A stretch of 39,987 nt of DNA from Accumulibacter sp. (GTDB lineage Bacteria; Pseudomonadota; Gammaproteobacteria; Burkholderiales; Rhodocyclaceae). The notes under the pieces were generated by a model. The model had not been told where the DNA came from. It made no database searches and saw nothing but the letters and a program-made list of their open reading frames with translations. Of this stretch, positions 28,309 through 35,963 are shown piece after piece. The stretch spans positions 1 to 39,987 of the forward strand of contig JAEUOJ010000146.1 of assembly GCA_016789495.1 (NCBI GenBank). Reading direction: 5' to 3'. The translations under genes were made by a program, and so were the position numbers. Within the stretch, counting starts at the first letter, position 1; each line of letters opens with the position of its first letter.

Positions 28309-29226
28309 TCATGCGCCCATGCGGATCAGACGGCGGGGTCGCAAGGTCCCGGAGGCGTCAAGTTCGCCCAAGCCGAGCAGACGAACGCCTTCATAAACCC
28401 GATATTTGCCTTCCTGGCCCTGGACTGGTACAGGGTTGCCATGCATGAAACGTTGCGCCTGCTCTTCAGTCAGAAAAACGGCAGGCAGGCTTTGCAGCAG
28501 CAAATCCGGCGGGTGAAGCCAGGCCAGACGGTCGGCTTCGGCAAGTTCGGCCAACTGTTCGAGAGTCACCGCCCCGTCCAACGTCAAAGTGCCGACCGCC
28601 GTTCTCCGAAGCGCGGTCAGATGCGCACCGCAACCGAGCGCGTTGCCCAGATCCTCAGCCAGCGTTCGGATGTAAGTCCCTTTGCTGCAAACGACACGTA
28701 ACCGGCTCCGATCATCGGCAAAGTCCAGCAGCGCAAGCTCGAAGATCGTCACCTCGCGCGCTTCGCGGTGGACGACGATGCCCTGACGCGCCAGTTCATA
28801 AAGCGGTTTGCCGTCGCGCTTGAGAGCTGAGAACATCGGTGGCACTTGGTGCTGTCGGCCCTGGAAGCGCTGCAGTACCGCTTCGAGTTCGCATCGCTCG
28901 AAAGCAACCGCCCGGCGTCGGACCACACTGCCCTCCGCGTCACCGGTGTCCGTGCTAACGCCAAACAGCAACTCGGTTTCATAGGTCTTGTCGGCATCGA
29001 GCAGATCGACGGCAAACTTGGTCGCCTCACCGAAACACAGCGGCAACAAGCCGCTGGCCATCGGGTCGAGGGTACCGGTATGGCCCGCCTTGGCCGCCGA
29101 AAACAGTCGCCGGACGCTTTGCAAGGCGGCGTTTGAACTCGATCCGGTCGACTTGTCGAGCAACACGACTCCGTCGACGCGGCGCCAGGTTTTTCGAGGG
29201 GCGGCGGGTTCAGAACGCGGCTTCAG
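28309..29226 (-). CDS. truB: tRNA pseudouridine-55 synthase TruB (probable CTG start)
   Basis: TruB makes pseudouridine 55 in the T loop of tRNAs. The first standard start codon, GTG at 29166, would begin inside the conserved VDGVVLLDK and drop the family's N-terminus. Reading upstream in frame gives KPRSEPAAPRKTWRR and then VDGVVLLDK, a typical TruB start, back to a CTG at 29226 that overlaps the rbfA stop (CTGA). With that start the protein has 305 residues, close to the family length. Catalytic Asp lies in AGHTGTLDPMASG; KTYETELLFG and GTYIRTLAEDLG are further motifs; a C-terminal PUA-like domain follows. It is the last gene of the rimP-nusA-infB-rbfA-truB operon. A lost ATG through sequence error is the alternative explanation. 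Confidence 0.88.
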   Translation of the reverse strand: MKPRSEPAAPRKTWRRVDGVVLLDKSTGSSSNAALQSVRRLFSAAKAGHTGTLDPMASGLLPLCFGEATKFAVDLLDADKTYETELLFGVSTDTGDAEGSVVRRRAVAFERCELEAVLQRFQGRQHQVPPMFSALKRDGKPLYELARQGIVVHREAREVTIFELALLDFADDRSRLRVVCSKGTYIRTLAEDLGNALGCGAHLTALRRTAVGTLTLDGAVTLEQLAELAEADRLAWLHPPDLLLQSLPAVFLTEEQAQRFMHGNPVPVQGQEGKYRVYEGVRLLGLGELDASGTLRPRRLIRMGA

Positions 29227-29648
29227 AGCGGTTTGACGGATTCGGCGCTGCTGTTGGCGAGCGGTTCGACATCGGCGGGTTGATCGGCTTCGGAAAGCGC
29301 AACCGCCTCGCCGATCAGCCGCGTCAATTGGGCGCCACGTTCCAGCGAATCGTCGAAGATGAAGTGCAACTGTGGTGTGGTATGAATTCGGATGCGTTTG
29401 CCCAACTCGCCGCGCAGAAATCCGGCGGCTTTGTCCAGGGCGGCTTGCACCGTTTGCAGTTGTTCGCTACCGGCCAGGGTGCTGAAATAGACCTTGGCAT
29501 GCGCGTAGTCGGGAGTGAGCTGCACATCGGTAAGGCTGACCATCCCAACCCGCGGATCGCGCAGCTCGGTGCGCAGCAATTCAGCCAGCTCGCGCCGAAG
29601 CTGTTCACAGATCCGATCTCGCCGGGAAAATCCCCTCTTGATAGCCAT
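29223..29648 (-). CDS. rbfA: 30S ribosome-binding factor RbfA
   Basis: The 141-residue protein has the RbfA KH-like fold: RICEQLRRELAELLRTELRDPR near 12, VSLTDVQLTPDYAHAKVYFS near 37, and LGKRIRIHTTPQLHFIFDDS near 82. It binds the 30S subunit in late maturation of 16S rRNA and is needed for growth in the cold. The ATG at 29648 follows the infB stop with no gap (TAA then ATG). Its stop overlaps the proposed truB CTG start, so translation along the operon is tightly coupled. The tail after residue 115 is acidic and variable, as in other members. Confidence 0.95.
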   Translation of the reverse strand: MAIKRGFSRRDRICEQLRRELAELLRTELRDPRVGMVSLTDVQLTPDYAHAKVYFSTLAGSEQLQTVQAALDKAAGFLRGELGKRIRIHTTPQLHFIFDDSLERGAQLTRLIGEAVALSEADQPADVEPLANSSAESVKPL

Positions 29649-32570
29649 TTACAACGTCCGCGCCACTTCGGTGACATCGAAGGCTTCGATTTGGTCGTTT
29701 TCTTCGTAGGCGTTGAAATTTTTCAACGACAAACCGCACTCGAAACCGCTGCGAACTTCCTTGACGTCGTCCTTGAAGCGTTTGAGCGACTCGATTTCGC
29801 CTTCCCAGACCACGATGTGCTTGCGCAGAACGCGTACCCGCGAACTGCGCTTGATGACCCCTTCGAGGACATAGCAGCCAGCGATGGTACCGATGCGGGT
29901 GGCCCGGAAAACCTGCCGGATCTCGACCAGGCCGGTGATTTCCTCGCGCTTCTCCGGCGCCAGCATGCCGGACAGCGCCGATTTGACTTCATCGACCGCG
30001 TCATAGATGATGTTGTAATAACGAATGTCGACGCCCGCCGTTTCCGCCGCTTTGCGCGCCCCGGCATCGGCACGGGCATTGAAGCCGATGATCACCGCCT
30101 TCGACGCTTGCGCCAGATGGACATCCGATTCGCTGATCGCGCCGACCGCGGCATGGATCACGTTGACTTTCACTTCGCCGGTCGACAATTTCTGCAGCGA
30201 CTGAACCAGCGCTTCCTGTGAACCCTGTACGTCGGCCTTGATGATCAGCGCCAGCACCTTGGCCTCGGCCTCGGTCATCTGGTCGAGGATGGTCTCCAGA
30301 CTGGCGGCCTGTTTGGTGGCCAGTTTGACGTCGCGGTACTTGCCCTGCCGGAACAGGGCGATTTCACGCGCCTTGCGTTCGTCGGCGAGGACCACCGCTT
30401 CCTGGCCCGCGGCCGGCACATCGGACAGACCCAAGATCTCCACCGGAATCGACGGGCCGGCTTCCTTGACCACTTTGCCGTTTTCGTCGAGCATCGCCCG
30501 CACCCGCCCGAAAACCTGGCCGGCGAGCAGAACGTCGCCTTGCCGCAGCGTGCCGGACAGAACCAGCATCGTCGCCACCGGACCCCGTCCACGGTCGAGG
30601 CGCGCTTCGATGATCAAACCTTTGGCCGGCGCATTCTTCGGCGCCTGCAGTTCGAGCACTTCGGCCTGCAGCAGGACGTTTTCAAGCAGCTCGTCGATAC
30701 CCGCTCCGGTTTTCGCCGACACGTGGACGAAAGGCGCATCGCCGCCGTATTCCTCCGGAACGACCTGCTCGGTCACCAGTTCCTGCTTGACACGATCGGT
30801 GTTGGCGCCGGGTTTGTCGATCTTGTTCACCGCCACGATGATCGGCACTCCGGCTGCTTTGGCATGGTGGATCGCTTCGCGGGTCTGCGGCATCACCCCG
30901 TCATCGGCCGCGACGACCAGAATCACTAGGTCGGTCGCCTTGGCGCCGCGCGCACGCATGGCGGTAAAGGCTTCGTGACCCGGCGTATCGAGGAAGGTCA
31001 CCATCCCACGCTCGGTCTGGACATGATAGGCGCCAATGTGCTGGGTGATCCCGCCCGCTTCGCCACTAGCCACCCGCGTACGGCGAATGTAATCGAGCAG
31101 CGAGGTTTTGCCGTGGTCGACGTGTCCCATCACCGTCACCACCGGCGCCCGCGTCTCCAGCGGAACGTCCTTGATATCAACCGAATCGTCGAGGAAGGCG
31201 TCGGGATCGTCGAGCTTGGCGGCAAAGGCCTTGTGACCCATTTCTTCGACGATGATCATCGCCGTTTCCTGATCAAGCACTTGGTTGATGGTCACCATCG
31301 AGCCCATTTTCATCAGCGCCTTGATCACCTCGGTGGCTTTGACCGCCATCTTATGAGCCAGATCGGCCACCGAAATCGTTTCGGGAACATAGACTTGATG
31401 AATGACCGGCTCGACCGGCAATTGGAATGAATGCTGCTCTTCCTCGGCGCCCCCCCGCGCCGGCCGCTTGCCATGTTTGTTGTCTCGCCAACCCGAGGTC
31501 GCGGTGACACCACGCGTTTTGAGTCCCGGCCGTTTGTTGGCGCCTTCGTTTTTCCAGGGCCCCTTTTGGTCGGCGGCCTTCTTTTCCGGGCTCTTTTTGT
31601 CGGCGGTCTTCTTATCGTCGCCGGTCGTCGGCTTCGCCGCCGGTTTGTGCAAGGTTTTGTCTTCGGCTGGACGGTCGCTGGCAGTTTGCGCGGCGACTTG
31701 CTTGGCGGCGCCAGCGGCTTTGGCGGCCACCGCTTTTTCCTCGGCTTCCTGCTTCAGGCGGGCGAGGTCGGCGCTGCGCTGCTGCTTGCTCTTGAACTCG
31801 GCTTCCTGAATCGCTCGCAATTCGGCGTTACGTCGGTCTTCCTCGGCGCGAAGCCGTTGTTGTTCTTCACCGATGATCGACGCGCGGGTAACCACTTTTT
31901 TGGCACCCGGTTTCGCCTCGGCAGCGTGCCCGCCTTTCGCGCGGTTCACGGCGTTGGCCGGTGGATTGGCGTTGGCAGCCGGCTCCGGTTTGCTTTCGAC
32001 AGCCGGTTTGATCTCATCGACGGGCTCGGGCGGACTCTGCTCAGGGGCAGGCTCCATGATCGCCTCGACCGCGGGCGGCTCGGCGGACAAATCGGCAACC
32101 GGCTCGCGGTGTTCGGCGGTTTGGACGACGACCGGCTCGTCAGCGGGCATGACCACCGGTACGGTAACAGCCGGTTCGGTGAGTGGTTCGGTGACCGGTT
32201 CGGTGACCGGTTCGGTGATAGCGGACTCGACGACGGCCGCTGGCACGGGCGGCTCGGCTCGCGGCTCCAGGGTGTCGCGCTTGACCAGAACCCGCTTTTT
32301 GCGCACCTCGACCTGGACGGTATGCGACTTGCCATGGGCGTCCTGCGCGCGAATCTCGCTCGTTTCCTTGCGCGTCAGGGTGATCTTGGTCTTGGCTTCG
32401 GTCTGGCCGCGGGAACGGCGCAGATAATCGAGCAAGCGGGATTTGTCCTGTTCGGACAACACGTCGTCGGCCTGACGCTTGGCGACACCAGCTCTTTGCA
32501 ACTGCTCGAGCAACGTTCCGGCAGGCATCTTCAACTGCGTGGCAAATTGGGCAACACTTGTTTGCGCCAT
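29649..32570 (-). CDS. infB: Translation initiation factor IF-2
   Basis: The 973-residue GTPase brings initiator tRNA to the ribosome. Residues 1-55 form the IF2-N domain ([20 protein letters not shown]). A long low-complexity region of Glu/Pro/Ala and Lys/Ala repeats runs to about 380. The G domain near 475-640 has GHVDHGKTS (G1), DTPGHEAF (G3) and NKID (G4). Domains II, III and IV follow, ending in the fMet-tRNA-binding C-terminus. AGAGGA six bases before the ATG supports the start. The disordered part contains a 12-bp DNA repeat coding for E-P-V/L-T units. It is transcribed after nusA and before rbfA, the usual order. Confidence 0.97.
32173..32220. repeat. Four 12-bp tandem repeats inside infB
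   Basis: Four consecutive units of GGTTCGGTGACC or near copies lie at 32173, 32185, 32197 and 32209; the two middle ones are identical. On the coding strand they encode repeated Glu-Pro-Val/Leu-Thr steps in the disordered N-terminal region of IF-2. The array is in frame, so copy-number change would alter length without a frameshift. Confidence 0.85.
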
Positions 32571-32589: not shown

Positions 32590-34062
32590 TTACTCGAACC
32601 AGTGCGCGCGCGCCGTGGTGATTAGTTGTTTTGCCCGTTGGGCATCGATACCGGTGATTTCGGTCAGTTCATCGACCGCCAGATCGGCCAGATCGTCACG
32701 TGTCTTGATCCCGCTGCCGGCGAGCTTGCCAGCCAAGGTCTTGTCCATGCCGTCGAGTCGGAGCATGTCGTCGGCGACATCCTCGAGCTTCTCCTCGGTG
32801 ACGATCGCTTCGGTCAGAAGCACATTTCGCGCCCGCTCGCGCAATTCCTGAACCGTCGCTTCGTCAAACGATTCGATTTCGAGCATTTCGTGCAACGGCA
32901 CGTAGGCCACTTCTTCGAGCGTCGAAAACCCTTCATCGATCAGGATGTTGGCCACTTCTTCGTCAACATCGAGCTTTTCAATGAACAGCACCCGGATCGC
33001 AGCCGCTTCGGCTTCGACAAGAGTCTTCGATTCTTCCTCGGTCATCAGGTTGATGTTCCAGCCGGTCAGTTCGGACGCCAGGCGAACGTTCTGACCGCCG
33101 CGGCCGATGGCGATCGCCAGATTCTGCTCATCGACGACCACGTCCATGCTGTGTTTTTCTTCATCGACGATGATCGAGCTGACTTCGGCCGGCGCCAGCG
33201 CACCAATGACGAACTGTGCCGGATCGGCCGACCAAAGGACGATATCGACGCGCTCACCGGCCAATTCGTTGGTCACCGCGGTCACCCGCATGCCGCGCAT
33301 GCCGACGCAGGTACCGATCGGGTCGATGCGCTGGTCGTTCGACTTGACGGCGATTTTGGCGCGCATGCCCGGGTCGCGGGCGGCCGCCTTGATTTCCAGC
33401 AAGCCATCGTCGACTTCCGGAACTTCCTGGGCGAACAGCTTGATGATGAATTCCGGCGCGGTGCGCGACAGAACCAGTTGCGGCCCCCTGGCCGAGCGGT
33501 CGATGCGCAACAGGAAGGCCTTGACTCGGTCGCCAATGCGCAGGTTTTCACGCGGAATCATCTGGTCGCGCGGCAAGACCGCTTCGAGTTTGCCCGTTTC
33601 GACGATCGCGTTGCCCCGCTCCATGCGCTTGACGCTGCCGGTAACCAGGTGTTCCTTACGGCTCAGGAAGTCATTGAGGATTTGTTCACGCTCGGCATCA
33701 CGAATTTTCTGCAGGATCACCTGCTTCGCCGCCTGCGCGCCGATGCGCCCGAAATCGATCGGTTCAAGCGCCTCCTCGAGGAAGTCGCCGATTTCGACTT
33801 CCGGATCCTGTTTGAGCGCGTCCGACAGCGGGATCTGGTACTCCTCGTGCAGATAATCGCCATCGTCGACGATTTCCCAACGACGGAACGTTTCGAAATC
33901 GCCGCTTTCACGGTCGACGACCACGCGGACGTTGGCGTCGTCGTGGATGCGCTTCTTGGTAGCCGAGGCCAGCGCCATTTCGAGCGCACCAAAGACGATG
34001 TCCTTGGTGACATTCTTTTCACGGGCCAGGACATCGACCAGGAGCAAGATTTCGCGGCTCAT
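32590..34062 (-). CDS. nusA: Transcription termination/antitermination factor NusA
   Basis: The 490-residue protein binds RNA polymerase and controls pausing, intrinsic termination and antitermination. The N-terminal polymerase-binding domain is at 1-125 ([20 protein letters not shown]). An S1 domain is at about 135-200, KH1 and KH2 are at about 230-345 with [18 protein letters not shown] and [18 protein letters not shown], and two acidic C-terminal repeats reach the end as in E. coli. A near-perfect ribosome binding site, AGGAGGTGAT, lies between the rimP stop and the ATG at 34062. NusA is known to regulate its own operon in E. coli, which matters here because the rimP leader carries terminator-like hairpins. 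Confidence 0.97.
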
Positions 34063-34076
34063 ATTCTCATCACCTC

Positions 34077-34544
34077 CTAAACCTGCTTGTCATTCGATTT
34101 CGTCAGTTCGTAGCGGGGAATCAGCCGAGCCTTGTCGATATCGCTCAAGTCGAACTCGAATTCGCCGGAATCGCTGCGCAAGCGGATACGGCCGTCCTGC
34201 ACACCCACCAGTTGACCACTGAAATTGCGTCGACCGGCCAGAGGCAACCGCAACTTGAGGCTGATTTCCGAACCCGCGAATCGTTCGTAATCCGCCTCCT
34301 TTTTCAACGGGCGGTCCAATCCCGGTGACGAGACTTCCAGCCGGTCATAATCGATGTCTTCGACGATCAACACGCGCGACAACTGGTTGCTGACCAACGC
34401 ACAGTCTTCGATGTCCACCCCGCGCGGCTTTTCCGGCTTGTCGATGAAGACACGCAGGACGCTGCCGCGCTGGCTGCGCTCGACATCGACCAGCTGGTAG
34501 CCGAGACCAGCGACTGTTTTTTCAATGACTTCGTGAACATCCAT
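34077..34544 (-). CDS. rimP: Ribosome maturation factor RimP
   Basis: The 155-residue protein assists 30S assembly. Conserved parts are [20 protein letters not shown] at 3-22, LRVFIDKP near 30, [20 protein letters not shown] near 73 and the C-terminal SH3-like domain with GVQDGRIRL. The ATG at 34544 matches the family start; an in-frame TTG at 34556 lies in the T tract of the leader hairpin and is less likely. It has no clear Shine-Dalgarno sequence, which is unusual for the head of an essential operon. Transcription should start near 34614 from the promoter listed separately, so the message carries two hairpins before the start codon. Confidence 0.95.
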
Positions 34545-34554
34545 GGCTGCAAAC

Positions 34555-34576
34555 AAAAAATGGGCAAAACGCCCAT
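34555..34576 (-). terminator. Terminator-like hairpin B in the rimP leader
   Basis: On the minus strand ATGGGC and GCCCAT (34560-34576) form a 6-bp stem with a 5-base loop GTTTT, followed by a run of T ending at 34555. It lies downstream of the rimP promoter and stops ten bases before the rimP ATG, leaving no room for another promoter. It must therefore be read through for the operon to be expressed from the promoter at 34621-34649. Confidence 0.8.
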
Positions 34577-34580
34577 CCCG

Positions 34581-34603
34581 AAAAAATTGCCCCCTGGGGG
34601 GGC
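34581..34603 (-). terminator. Terminator-like hairpin A in the rimP leader
   Basis: GCCCCC and GGGGGC (arms 34598-34603 and 34589-34594) make a 6-bp all-GC stem with a 3-base loop, followed by AA and six T residues on the minus strand. It precedes hairpin B by about 12 bases. CGCCC in its 5' part could instead pair with GGGCG of hairpin B, which would give a mutually exclusive fold; that alternative is inferred from complementarity only. Confidence 0.7.
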
Positions 34604-34620
34604 GAGCGGAAAACCGTTGG

Positions 34621-34649
34621 ATTATAACGAGAAAAGTGGCGCAGGTAAA
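34621..34649 (-). promoter_or_regulatory. Near-consensus sigma-70 promoter of the rimP-nusA-infB operon
   Basis: Read on the minus strand, TTTACC (34649-34644) and a perfect TATAAT (34626-34621) are separated by exactly 17 bases. The -35 box is the loop of an inverted repeat, GGCGCA and TGCGCC (34638-34655). This hairpin followed by ACTTTTCTCGTT could serve as a weak terminator for the upstream rluB transcript. Transcription should begin near 34614, giving a leader of about 70 nt that includes hairpins A and B. Confidence 0.8.
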
Positions 34650-34673
34650 TGCGCCAAGCGACCGGCGGATCAG

Positions 34674-35783
34674 TCAGCGCGCACGCGGTCGAGGCGAGGA
34701 AAACGCGGGCGCCATCTCCAGATCGACCAACAACTTGCGGACCTCGGCCTCGCTCAACTCGCGATGCTGCCCGCGTTTCAGTTGCGGCGGGAGCAAGAAC
34801 GAACCGTAGCGGATGCGGATCAGCCGGCTGACGACGACGCCGACCGCTTCGAACATCCGCCGCACCTCGCGATTCCTGCCTTCGGCCAGCGCGACCCGAT
34901 ACCAGCGATTGGCGCCCTCACCGCCCGCTTCCTGGAAGCTGGAGAACTGGGCCACGCCGTCCGTGAGTTCGATGCCGGCAAGCAGGCGCTCTTTAGCGTC
35001 CTCCGGCAATTCACCGAGAACGCGCACCGCGTATTCTCGGATCAGTTGATAACGCGGGTGCATCAACCGGTTGGCCAGATCGCCCGAGGTGGTCAGTAAC
35101 AGCAGGCCACTGGTGTTGAAATCGAGACGACCGACGGCAACCCAGCGGCCGGCGGCCATCCGTGGCAGCGCGGTAAAAACCGTCGGTCGGTGCACGGGAT
35201 CGTTACGGGAAACGATCTCGCCTTCCGGTTTGTGATAGATCAAAACCCGCGGCAGCCGTTCGGAGAAACGCAGGGGGACCAGCTTGCCGTTGACCTTGAC
35301 CCGGTCGCCGAAACTCACGGTCTGCCCCAGTTGCGCCGGAACGCCATTGACCATGATCCGACCGGCGGTGATCATCTCTTCCATTTCGCGACGCGAGCCG
35401 AGTCCACTGTTGGCCAGCAGCTTGTGCAGGCGTTCCGGCTTTCCTGGTCGTTCCTCGTGCCGCCTTCGCCCCGTGCCGACCGTCTGAATGCTGGATCGAG
35501 CCGGGCTGTAAGGCCGTTCCGAGGCCGGCTGCTTCGAGAAACTTGTGGGTTCCTTGGCTTTTTCAGGCCCTTGCCGCGGATTGCCGCCGGCGGCGGGGAA
35601 GGCCCTCCCCGGCCTCGCTGCTCCGCCAGCCGACGTCGGTCGCCGGCCGGCCGGCCGGGGTGGATTGGGTGAAGTGGTGAAAGCGGCGGCGATGGACTTG
35701 GTCGTCGTTCGACGACCGCGCCCGCCAGCCAGCGGCTCGGGGCGCGACCTCGCGACGGTGGTTTTGCGTTTGTCAGTCGGCAT
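34674..35783 (-). CDS. rluB: 23S rRNA pseudouridine synthase RluB
   Basis: The 369-residue protein makes pseudouridine 2605 (E. coli numbering) in 23S rRNA. The frame is open to 35852, but the ATG at 35783 has GGAG ten bases upstream and is used. Residues 1-115 are a disordered, Arg/Pro/Lys-rich extension not needed for catalysis. An S4 RNA-binding domain follows ([21 protein letters not shown]). The catalytic domain has [14 protein letters not shown] with the active Asp and [15 protein letters not shown] near the end. RluB is separated from the related RluE and RluF by its S4 domain and length. It follows scpA-scpB, an arrangement common in proteobacteria, and its 3' end abuts the rimP promoter. 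Confidence 0.9.
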
Positions 35784-35963
35784 GGTTGGCAAACTCCAGA
35801 GAGGTGTGCAGCTGGTCTGGCCGCCTGTCGGACGGGCGGGATTGAAGCGCAACAGGTGGCAGACAGGCGCAGGTTGTCACGGATGGCAAACGAACAGTGT
35901 GGGCCATCCACGCGCTAAGCGGGAAAAAATCCGCAGTCGCTCCACGTCTTGCAGAGCACCGGG

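Follow-up and report, generated by a model that had tools for sequence, protein, structure and literature searches.

Using NCBIfam models, rimP, nusA, infB (encoding IF-2), rbfA and truB have been identified on the minus strand of the window, by which is meant the whole stretch of 39,987 nucleotides that was analysed (Table 1). The gap between rluB and rimP is exactly 34545-34673 on that strand, with the rluB stop ending at 34674; scpB, also named by NCBIfam, lies upstream of this leader. The window's genome has a single match to rimP, and the closest NusA proteins in the genome collection, at 90-92% identity, belong mostly to Candidatus Accumulibacter.

The anatomy of the leader can be read directly. 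A -35 element, TTTACC, and a -10 element, TATAAT, are followed by two hairpins, here called T1 and T2, each with a tail of six T; in T1 the stem and the T6 are separated by a two-base AA spacer, and from the end of the T2 T6 to the rimP ATG (34544-34542) there are just ten bases, 34554-34545. The promoter with its 17-nt spacing, the two T6-tailed hairpins and the ten bases had all been described in the earlier note, and all were found as claimed when the sequence was checked. The predicted start site lies near 34613, and there would appear to be no room for a promoter 3' of T2, because only those ten bases remain before the ATG. They contain no Shine-Dalgarno-like AGGAG (34545-34554, minus strand), and translation may use other signals. 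Immediately past the rluB stop, a hairpin of 7 pairs tailed by CTTTTC overlaps the -35 element; it is apparently not conserved in relatives and has been taken as chance or as the end of rluB.

Table 1. Genes and leader features on the window, with the strand and the basis or make-up of each (tail positions are counted from the last C of the T2 GCCC)
Feature	Position	Strand	Basis or make-up
rluB, 23S rRNA pseudouridine synthase	34674..35852	-	NCBIfam, 284.9 bits, just under the cut-off of 290
Hairpin overlapping the -35 element	34637-34656	-	7 pairs, CTTTTC tail
-35 element TTTACC	34644-34649	-	Sequence reading and consensus scan
-10 element TATAAT	34621-34626	-	17-nt spacer to -35
T1	34581-34603	-	GCCCCC-CCA-GGGGGC 34603-34589, AA, T6 34586-34581
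T2, rimP-leader terminator	34555-34576	-	ATGGGC-GTTTT-GCCCAT 34576-34560, T6 34560-34555
T2 tail	34547-34554	-	G +8 (34554), TTT +9 to +11 (34553-34551), GCAG +12 to +15
RF02420 match	34553-34595	+	20.8 bits, cut-off 50
rimP	34077..34544	-	NCBIfam
nusA	32590..34062	-	NCBIfam
infB (IF-2)	29649..32570	-	NCBIfam
rbfA	29223..29648	-	NCBIfam
truB	28309..29166	-	NCBIfam

In a 70-nt fold the minimum-energy structure holds both T1 and T2 (-24.2 kcal/mol). The fold z-scores of the leader pieces are modest, from -0.7 to -1.9, and between 30000 and 39987 neither consensus promoters (2, as against 1.7 in shuffles) nor consensus terminators (12, as against 10.9) are found above chance, so that such matches alone mean little and conservation becomes the main support. 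A stricter terminator scan of 745,021 bases from six genomes, on both strands, gave 125 terminators other than T2, or about one per 12 kb of strand, which makes two within 50 nt unusual; these 125, taken under the same T-tract rule, are the background used below.

The leader sets compared are partly hand-chosen and are not random samples. The betaproteobacterial set of 168 comprises the window, 78 of the 80 loci nearest by NusA, 29 further loci and 60 chosen places, while that from the other Gammaproteobacteria (106, below called the other class leaders) comprises 30 loci, 60 chosen places and 16 further ones; 10 leaders lie outside the class. Two copies of the window (L001, L003), three loci that are not rimP (L002, L004, L005), two on contigs without rimP (L017, L065), one at the same place as L201 (L280) and E. 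coli itself (L115) were dropped, and L284 and L291 were assigned to the class by their family label. The non-redundant sets, of 133 betaproteobacterial and 69 other class leaders, were defined by 8-mers in common over the 60 nt that precede T2, and too short an upstream stretch removes leaders from some of the counts (132 rather than 133). The near relatives are 25 leaders: L006-L029 and L074, with a NusA identity of at least 80%, minus L017 and plus the window.

T2 is by far the better represented of the two hairpins. Defined as GGG[CT]..[AG]CCC plus at least four T within 250 nt upstream of rimP, it is found in 161 of the 168 betaproteobacterial leaders, in 74 of 106 other class leaders and in 2 of the 10 outside the class, and is absent, in this form and distance, from 7, 32 and 8 of them, respectively. 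Among 200 whole genomes of the order, TGGGC-N(2-8)-GCCCATTTTTT occurs in 142, usually in one copy, as against apparently a single genome for the reversed pattern. Of 150 motif places listed, 113 have rimP less than 300 nt downstream and 7 are elsewhere; the other 30 are in genomes without a listed rimP position, so that 113 of the 120 assignable places are rimP leaders. Covariation is seen at the next pair inward from GGGC/GCCC, where Watson-Crick combinations make up 81 of 122 cases in the betaproteobacterial leaders (mean 39.1 and maximum 58 after column shuffling) and 50 of 66 in the other class leaders (35.1 and 42); the second outer pair of T2 is G-T, A-T or G-C in 64 of 69 of the latter. 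Conservation and covariation, both observed directly, thus indicate that T2 is a paired RNA element under selection. Reading the palindrome as a DNA operator is disfavoured, since that second outer pair is often G-T (31 of the 69 other class leaders); the T-tract, present on one side only, also argues against it. The two bottom pairs of the stem are both weak in 121 of 133 betaproteobacterial T2 and 39 of 69 other class T2, compared with 40 of the 125 background terminators; in the window they are T-A and A-T. Three gammaproteobacterial leaders (L159, L171 and L192) keep a T2-like hairpin with a poor T-tract, as if it had decayed to a pause or processing hairpin.

Of the 132 non-redundant betaproteobacterial leaders, 109 have a -10-like hexamer in the 75 nt before T2 (mean 36.9 and at most 43 in shuffles), 59 of them with an exact TATAAT; for the other class leaders the figure is 30 of 69 (shuffles 18.6 on average, 25 at most), and among the near relatives an exact TATAAT is found at this distance in 23 of 25. 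With the hexamers so close upstream, T2 would often lie within the first tens of transcribed bases. This bears on the suggestion that T1 and T2 mainly terminate the scpB-rluB unit, with rimP being transcribed by read-through or from an unrecognised start and with no regulated attenuation. The position of rluB, directly upstream and on the same strand, is in keeping with that suggestion, as is the E. coli operon, where the C-rich-first terminator follows the metY tRNA, and similar layouts are seen in other leaders, in which T1 might do no more than close the upstream transcript. Against it stand a hexamer placed near T2 in far more leaders than in any shuffle, a T2 sequence that is kept whatever its distance from the start codon, and a motif whose assignable places are rimP leaders in all but 7 cases, and we consider this explanation quite improbable.

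A distinctive property of T2 lies in its tail, which is numbered from the last C of GCCC, putting the base of the stem at +2. After the T run of +2 to +7 comes a purine at +8, in 89% of the betaproteobacterial and 84% of the other class leaders, and then T at +9, +10 and +11 (99, 100 and 94%, and 94, 93 and 86%, respectively). The betaproteobacterial tail continues with G at +12 (83%), a pyrimidine at +13 (96%), a purine at +14 (91%, with G in 71%) and G at +15 (64%), little being conserved beyond that; +12 and +13 are weakly conserved in the other class leaders. The pattern TTKSTGG was too strict to capture this, being found in 13 of 229 class genomes and missing the window, and position-wise counts were used instead. 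When the comparison is confined to leaders with at least five T in +2 to +7 (131 of the 133 and 64 of the 69), a purine at +8 together with TTT is seen in 116 of 131 betaproteobacterial T2 and 49 of 64 other class T2 and in just 2 of the 125 other terminators, making the interrupted U-tract specific to this element. Leaders with a start codon 45 nt or more away (25 and 26 of them) still have the TTT, T at +11 being down to 76% in the first group, and it is therefore not simply a translation start signal.

The meaning that we give to this interruption is drawn from Bacillus subtilis, where release is reported 7-9 nt downstream of the stem base (PMC8060035). From a stem base at +2, that distance falls on the TTT, so that the purine would be a distal interruption of the U-tract. 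Distal interruptions and weak stem-base pairs have been described for both NusA- and NusG-dependent B. subtilis terminators (PMC8060035), and the window's T2, with its weak stem base and its purine at +8, fits the sequence traits of the NusA-dependent ones. The fixed break appears to be a newly measured signature, of which no mention was met in the available text of PMC2965389 or in the literature surveyed, though the logos or supplement of that paper, or Mondal et al. 2016, may already display it. A more far-reaching possibility, which we offer tentatively and would not yet favour, is that selection keeps the rimP-leader terminator suboptimal as a dedicated sensor of NusA, such that release needs NusA, or NusA and NusG. 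The flaw in it might then consist of the fixed purine followed by UUU, plus the G-Y-R tail in betaproteobacteria, a part of the proposal that we hold just as tentatively. If true, one design would be common to Beta- and Gammaproteobacteria, and the conservation of the sequence of T2, and not just of its structure, would be accounted for. A fixed, element-specific flaw of this kind in so compact a leader offers a one-base test of the readout of NusA levels.

The same tail invites two other interpretations. TTRTTT could be a contact for NusG, which would pause the polymerase and drive termination at T2 alone or along with NusA: TTNTTT is reported as the B. subtilis NusG pause motif, the NusG-dependent terminators of that organism have weak terminal pairs and distal interruptions (PMC8060035), and a pro-pausing NusG is described as widespread beyond the gammaproteobacteria. 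The key T residues, however, are at -12, -11, -8, -7 and -6 relative to the paused end (PMC8060035), and setting the TTT of +9 to +11 at -8 to -6 would place that end 14 nt past the stem base, beyond the 7-9 nt; moreover, the NusG of the window's genome has S-T, and neither the N-T of B. subtilis nor the S-V of E. coli. Termination at T2 through such a NusG contact seems unlikely. The S-T of this NusG, as aligned with the E. coli and B. subtilis proteins, is in itself an intermediate state at residues linked to pausing.

The consensus of his-type pauses is a pyrimidine followed by G at the pause. The T2 tail could also be such a hairpin-stabilised pause, located after the U-tract, with pausing rather than release as the main event; the stem base at +2 is 11 nt before +13, NusA-stimulated pauses are described as having their hairpins 10-13 nt upstream of the pause, and the betaproteobacterial preferences at +13 (pyrimidine, 96%) and +14 (G, 71%) are what one would look for. 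The window has C then A at these positions, rather than a pyrimidine then G, and the weak conservation of +12 and +13 in the other class leaders also speaks against a pause of this type, which we regard as highly unlikely in general. It has been set aside for the T2 of the window itself, where the 11-nt spacing fits but an A stands at +14 where G is expected.

T1 has a much narrower distribution. Ahead of T2, 22 of the 25 near relatives carry T1 together with a T-tract, with loops and some pairs changed (19 of 21 in an earlier hand-picked set of near relatives, without L023, L025, L027 and L029). Across the non-redundant sets, a T1-like hairpin within 65 nt was counted in 23 of the 132 betaproteobacterial leaders (shuffles average 6.4 and reach 12) and in 15 of the 69 others of the class (average 2.9, reaching 7); 13 of these 15 are C-rich-first. 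Judging from these counts, T1 is real but optional and limited to certain lineages. The conservation of the hairpins in relatives, on which the earlier note had made its case depend, thus holds for T2, with its 161 of 168 betaproteobacterial leaders, but not generally for T1.

An alternative CGCCC/GGGCG pairing was also taken there as a hint of mutually exclusive folds. In a switch of this kind, pairing between the 5' arms of the two hairpins, C-rich in T1 and G-rich in T2, would cost the leader both terminators in response to a protein, the ribosome or another signal. The arms are indeed complementary, their duplex in the window amounting to -13.5 kcal/mol, and at the stage where the 5' arm of T2 has just emerged it is the minimum-energy fold in 8 of the 25 near relatives; furthermore, a clear potential antiterminator has been reported for the gammaproteobacterial tandem form (PMC2965389). 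In the window, however, T1 plus T2 comes to -21.9 kcal/mol and a fold constrained to include CGCCC/GGGCG to -15.1, and at the partial stage, with the T2 5' arm only, the window is one of 11 of the 25 that keep T1; another 6 fold otherwise, so that 17 of 25 do not prefer the exclusive pairing. In the complete leaders T2 is formed in 22 of 25 near relatives, the exceptions being L025, L026 and L028, in the last two of which (MAGs labelled Accumulibacter) the 5' arm of T2 is sequestered by a longer outer stem enclosing T1. Most leaders, besides, carry T2 without any T1-like hairpin. As a potential antiterminator, then, the pairing is preferred at the partial stage in 8 of 25 near relatives and not in the window. 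For some members of the clade a switch is conceivable in these models, though not a consistent one, and we do not think it probable that the leader works in this way.

The arrangement that we consider probable is a tandem rimP-leader attenuator, in which NusA-stimulated premature termination at T2 would act as negative feedback, with T1 adding to the effect. As we infer it from the leader's anatomy, RNA polymerase would start about 10 nt before T1 and, with a start upstream of T1, every transcript from the promoter would pass both T1 and T2. T2 would be a weak intrinsic terminator: its stem is short and closes at the bottom with two A-U pairs, and a purine interrupts its U-tract. NusA, the product of the second gene of the operon, would aid formation of the T2 hairpin in the RNA exit channel and would lengthen the pause on the imperfect U-tract; more NusA would then mean more of the short terminated RNA and less rimP-nusA-infB mRNA. 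T1 would act in the same direction, as an additional stop confined to certain lineages, and transcripts reading through from rluB may be caught there too. A promoter-proximal attenuator of this essential operon, with NusA as the likely factor, is what the earlier note had envisaged, and it gains support from the published reading of the rimP leader (PMC2965389). NusA is essential, and most reports of its feedback have come from B. subtilis and E. coli; the present leader extends the proposed control to environmental betaproteobacteria such as Accumulibacter.

Among the Rfam families, nothing was found at gathering level in the window, and RF01770 (rimP; cut-off 47 bits) gave no match there at E values up to 10 and none in the whole genome; the cut-off was reached in the E. 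coli control and in none of 56 class genomes, 5 of which had weaker matches. The suggestion is that this model covers little of a class in which T2 is common (74 of 106 leaders). The consensus hairpin of RF02420 (Bp1_162, described as an sRNA of Burkholderia) corresponds to T2 in reverse complement, and the sub-threshold match of this family in the window is on the strand opposite to T2. In 100 genomes of the order the family gave two matches, of 33.7 and 33.4 bits, both below the cut-off of 50, and the better one sits on a rimP leader (L293, at about 1500-1530). This family may therefore be a wrong-strand reading of the rimP leader, in which case one Rfam sRNA family would be the wrong strand of a known element.

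The rimP-leader attenuator was described in 2010 by Naville and Gautheret, including its tandem form and with NusA proposed as the factor (PMC2965389), so that the element, the tandem form and the NusA idea are already published and the window is a further example. The published element has a GGGc..gCCC stem and a U-stretch, with a distance of 4 to 130 nt between terminator and gene start, and in the tandem form an inverse CCCg..cGGG hairpin upstream (PMC2965389). The window shares all of these: its leader heads rimP-nusA-infB and has GGGC-GTTTT-GCCC-A-T6 (34574-34555) 10 nt from the ATG, with an inverse CCC..GGG hairpin upstream in the form of T1 (GCCCCC/GGGGGC plus T6). The tandem form was ascribed in the text to several Gammaproteobacteria, whereas here it is found in an Accumulibacter-like betaproteobacterium, and the T1 of the window differs in ending 14 nt before the GGGC of T2 and in having an AA spacer before its T-tract.

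A role for NusA as the attenuation factor, also put forward in the earlier note, agrees with the autoregulation of NusA stated for B. subtilis and E. coli and suggested for Streptococcus agalactiae. In the E. coli metY-rimP-nusA-infB operon, terminators t1 and t2 precede rimP and control of the operon by NusA is stated (PMC6511841); the tandem hairpins seen before rimP there, which we take to be t1 and t2, are C-rich-first and then G-rich-first with T-runs, as in the window, but a tRNA gene (metY) precedes them and the second T-run is followed by ATGTC, without the R-TTT tail. Fusions of the E. coli rimP 5' UTR plus ORF dropped in a rho mutant (PMC7815308), an effect that the proposed attenuation does not simply explain. 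In S. agalactiae, a Firmicute, termination has been placed 31 nt after the operon's own start upstream of rimP, and NusA feedback has been suggested (PMC4448216); the short terminated RNA and the feedback idea are alike. B. subtilis belongs to another phylum, but its NusA is autoregulated by NusA-stimulated intrinsic termination in its own leader (Mondal et al. 2016, cited in PMC12288461 and PMC8060035), that is, before its own gene, as proposed here for T2, and the NusA- and NusG-dependent terminators of that organism share with T2 the distal interruption and the weak A-U stem base (PMC8060035).
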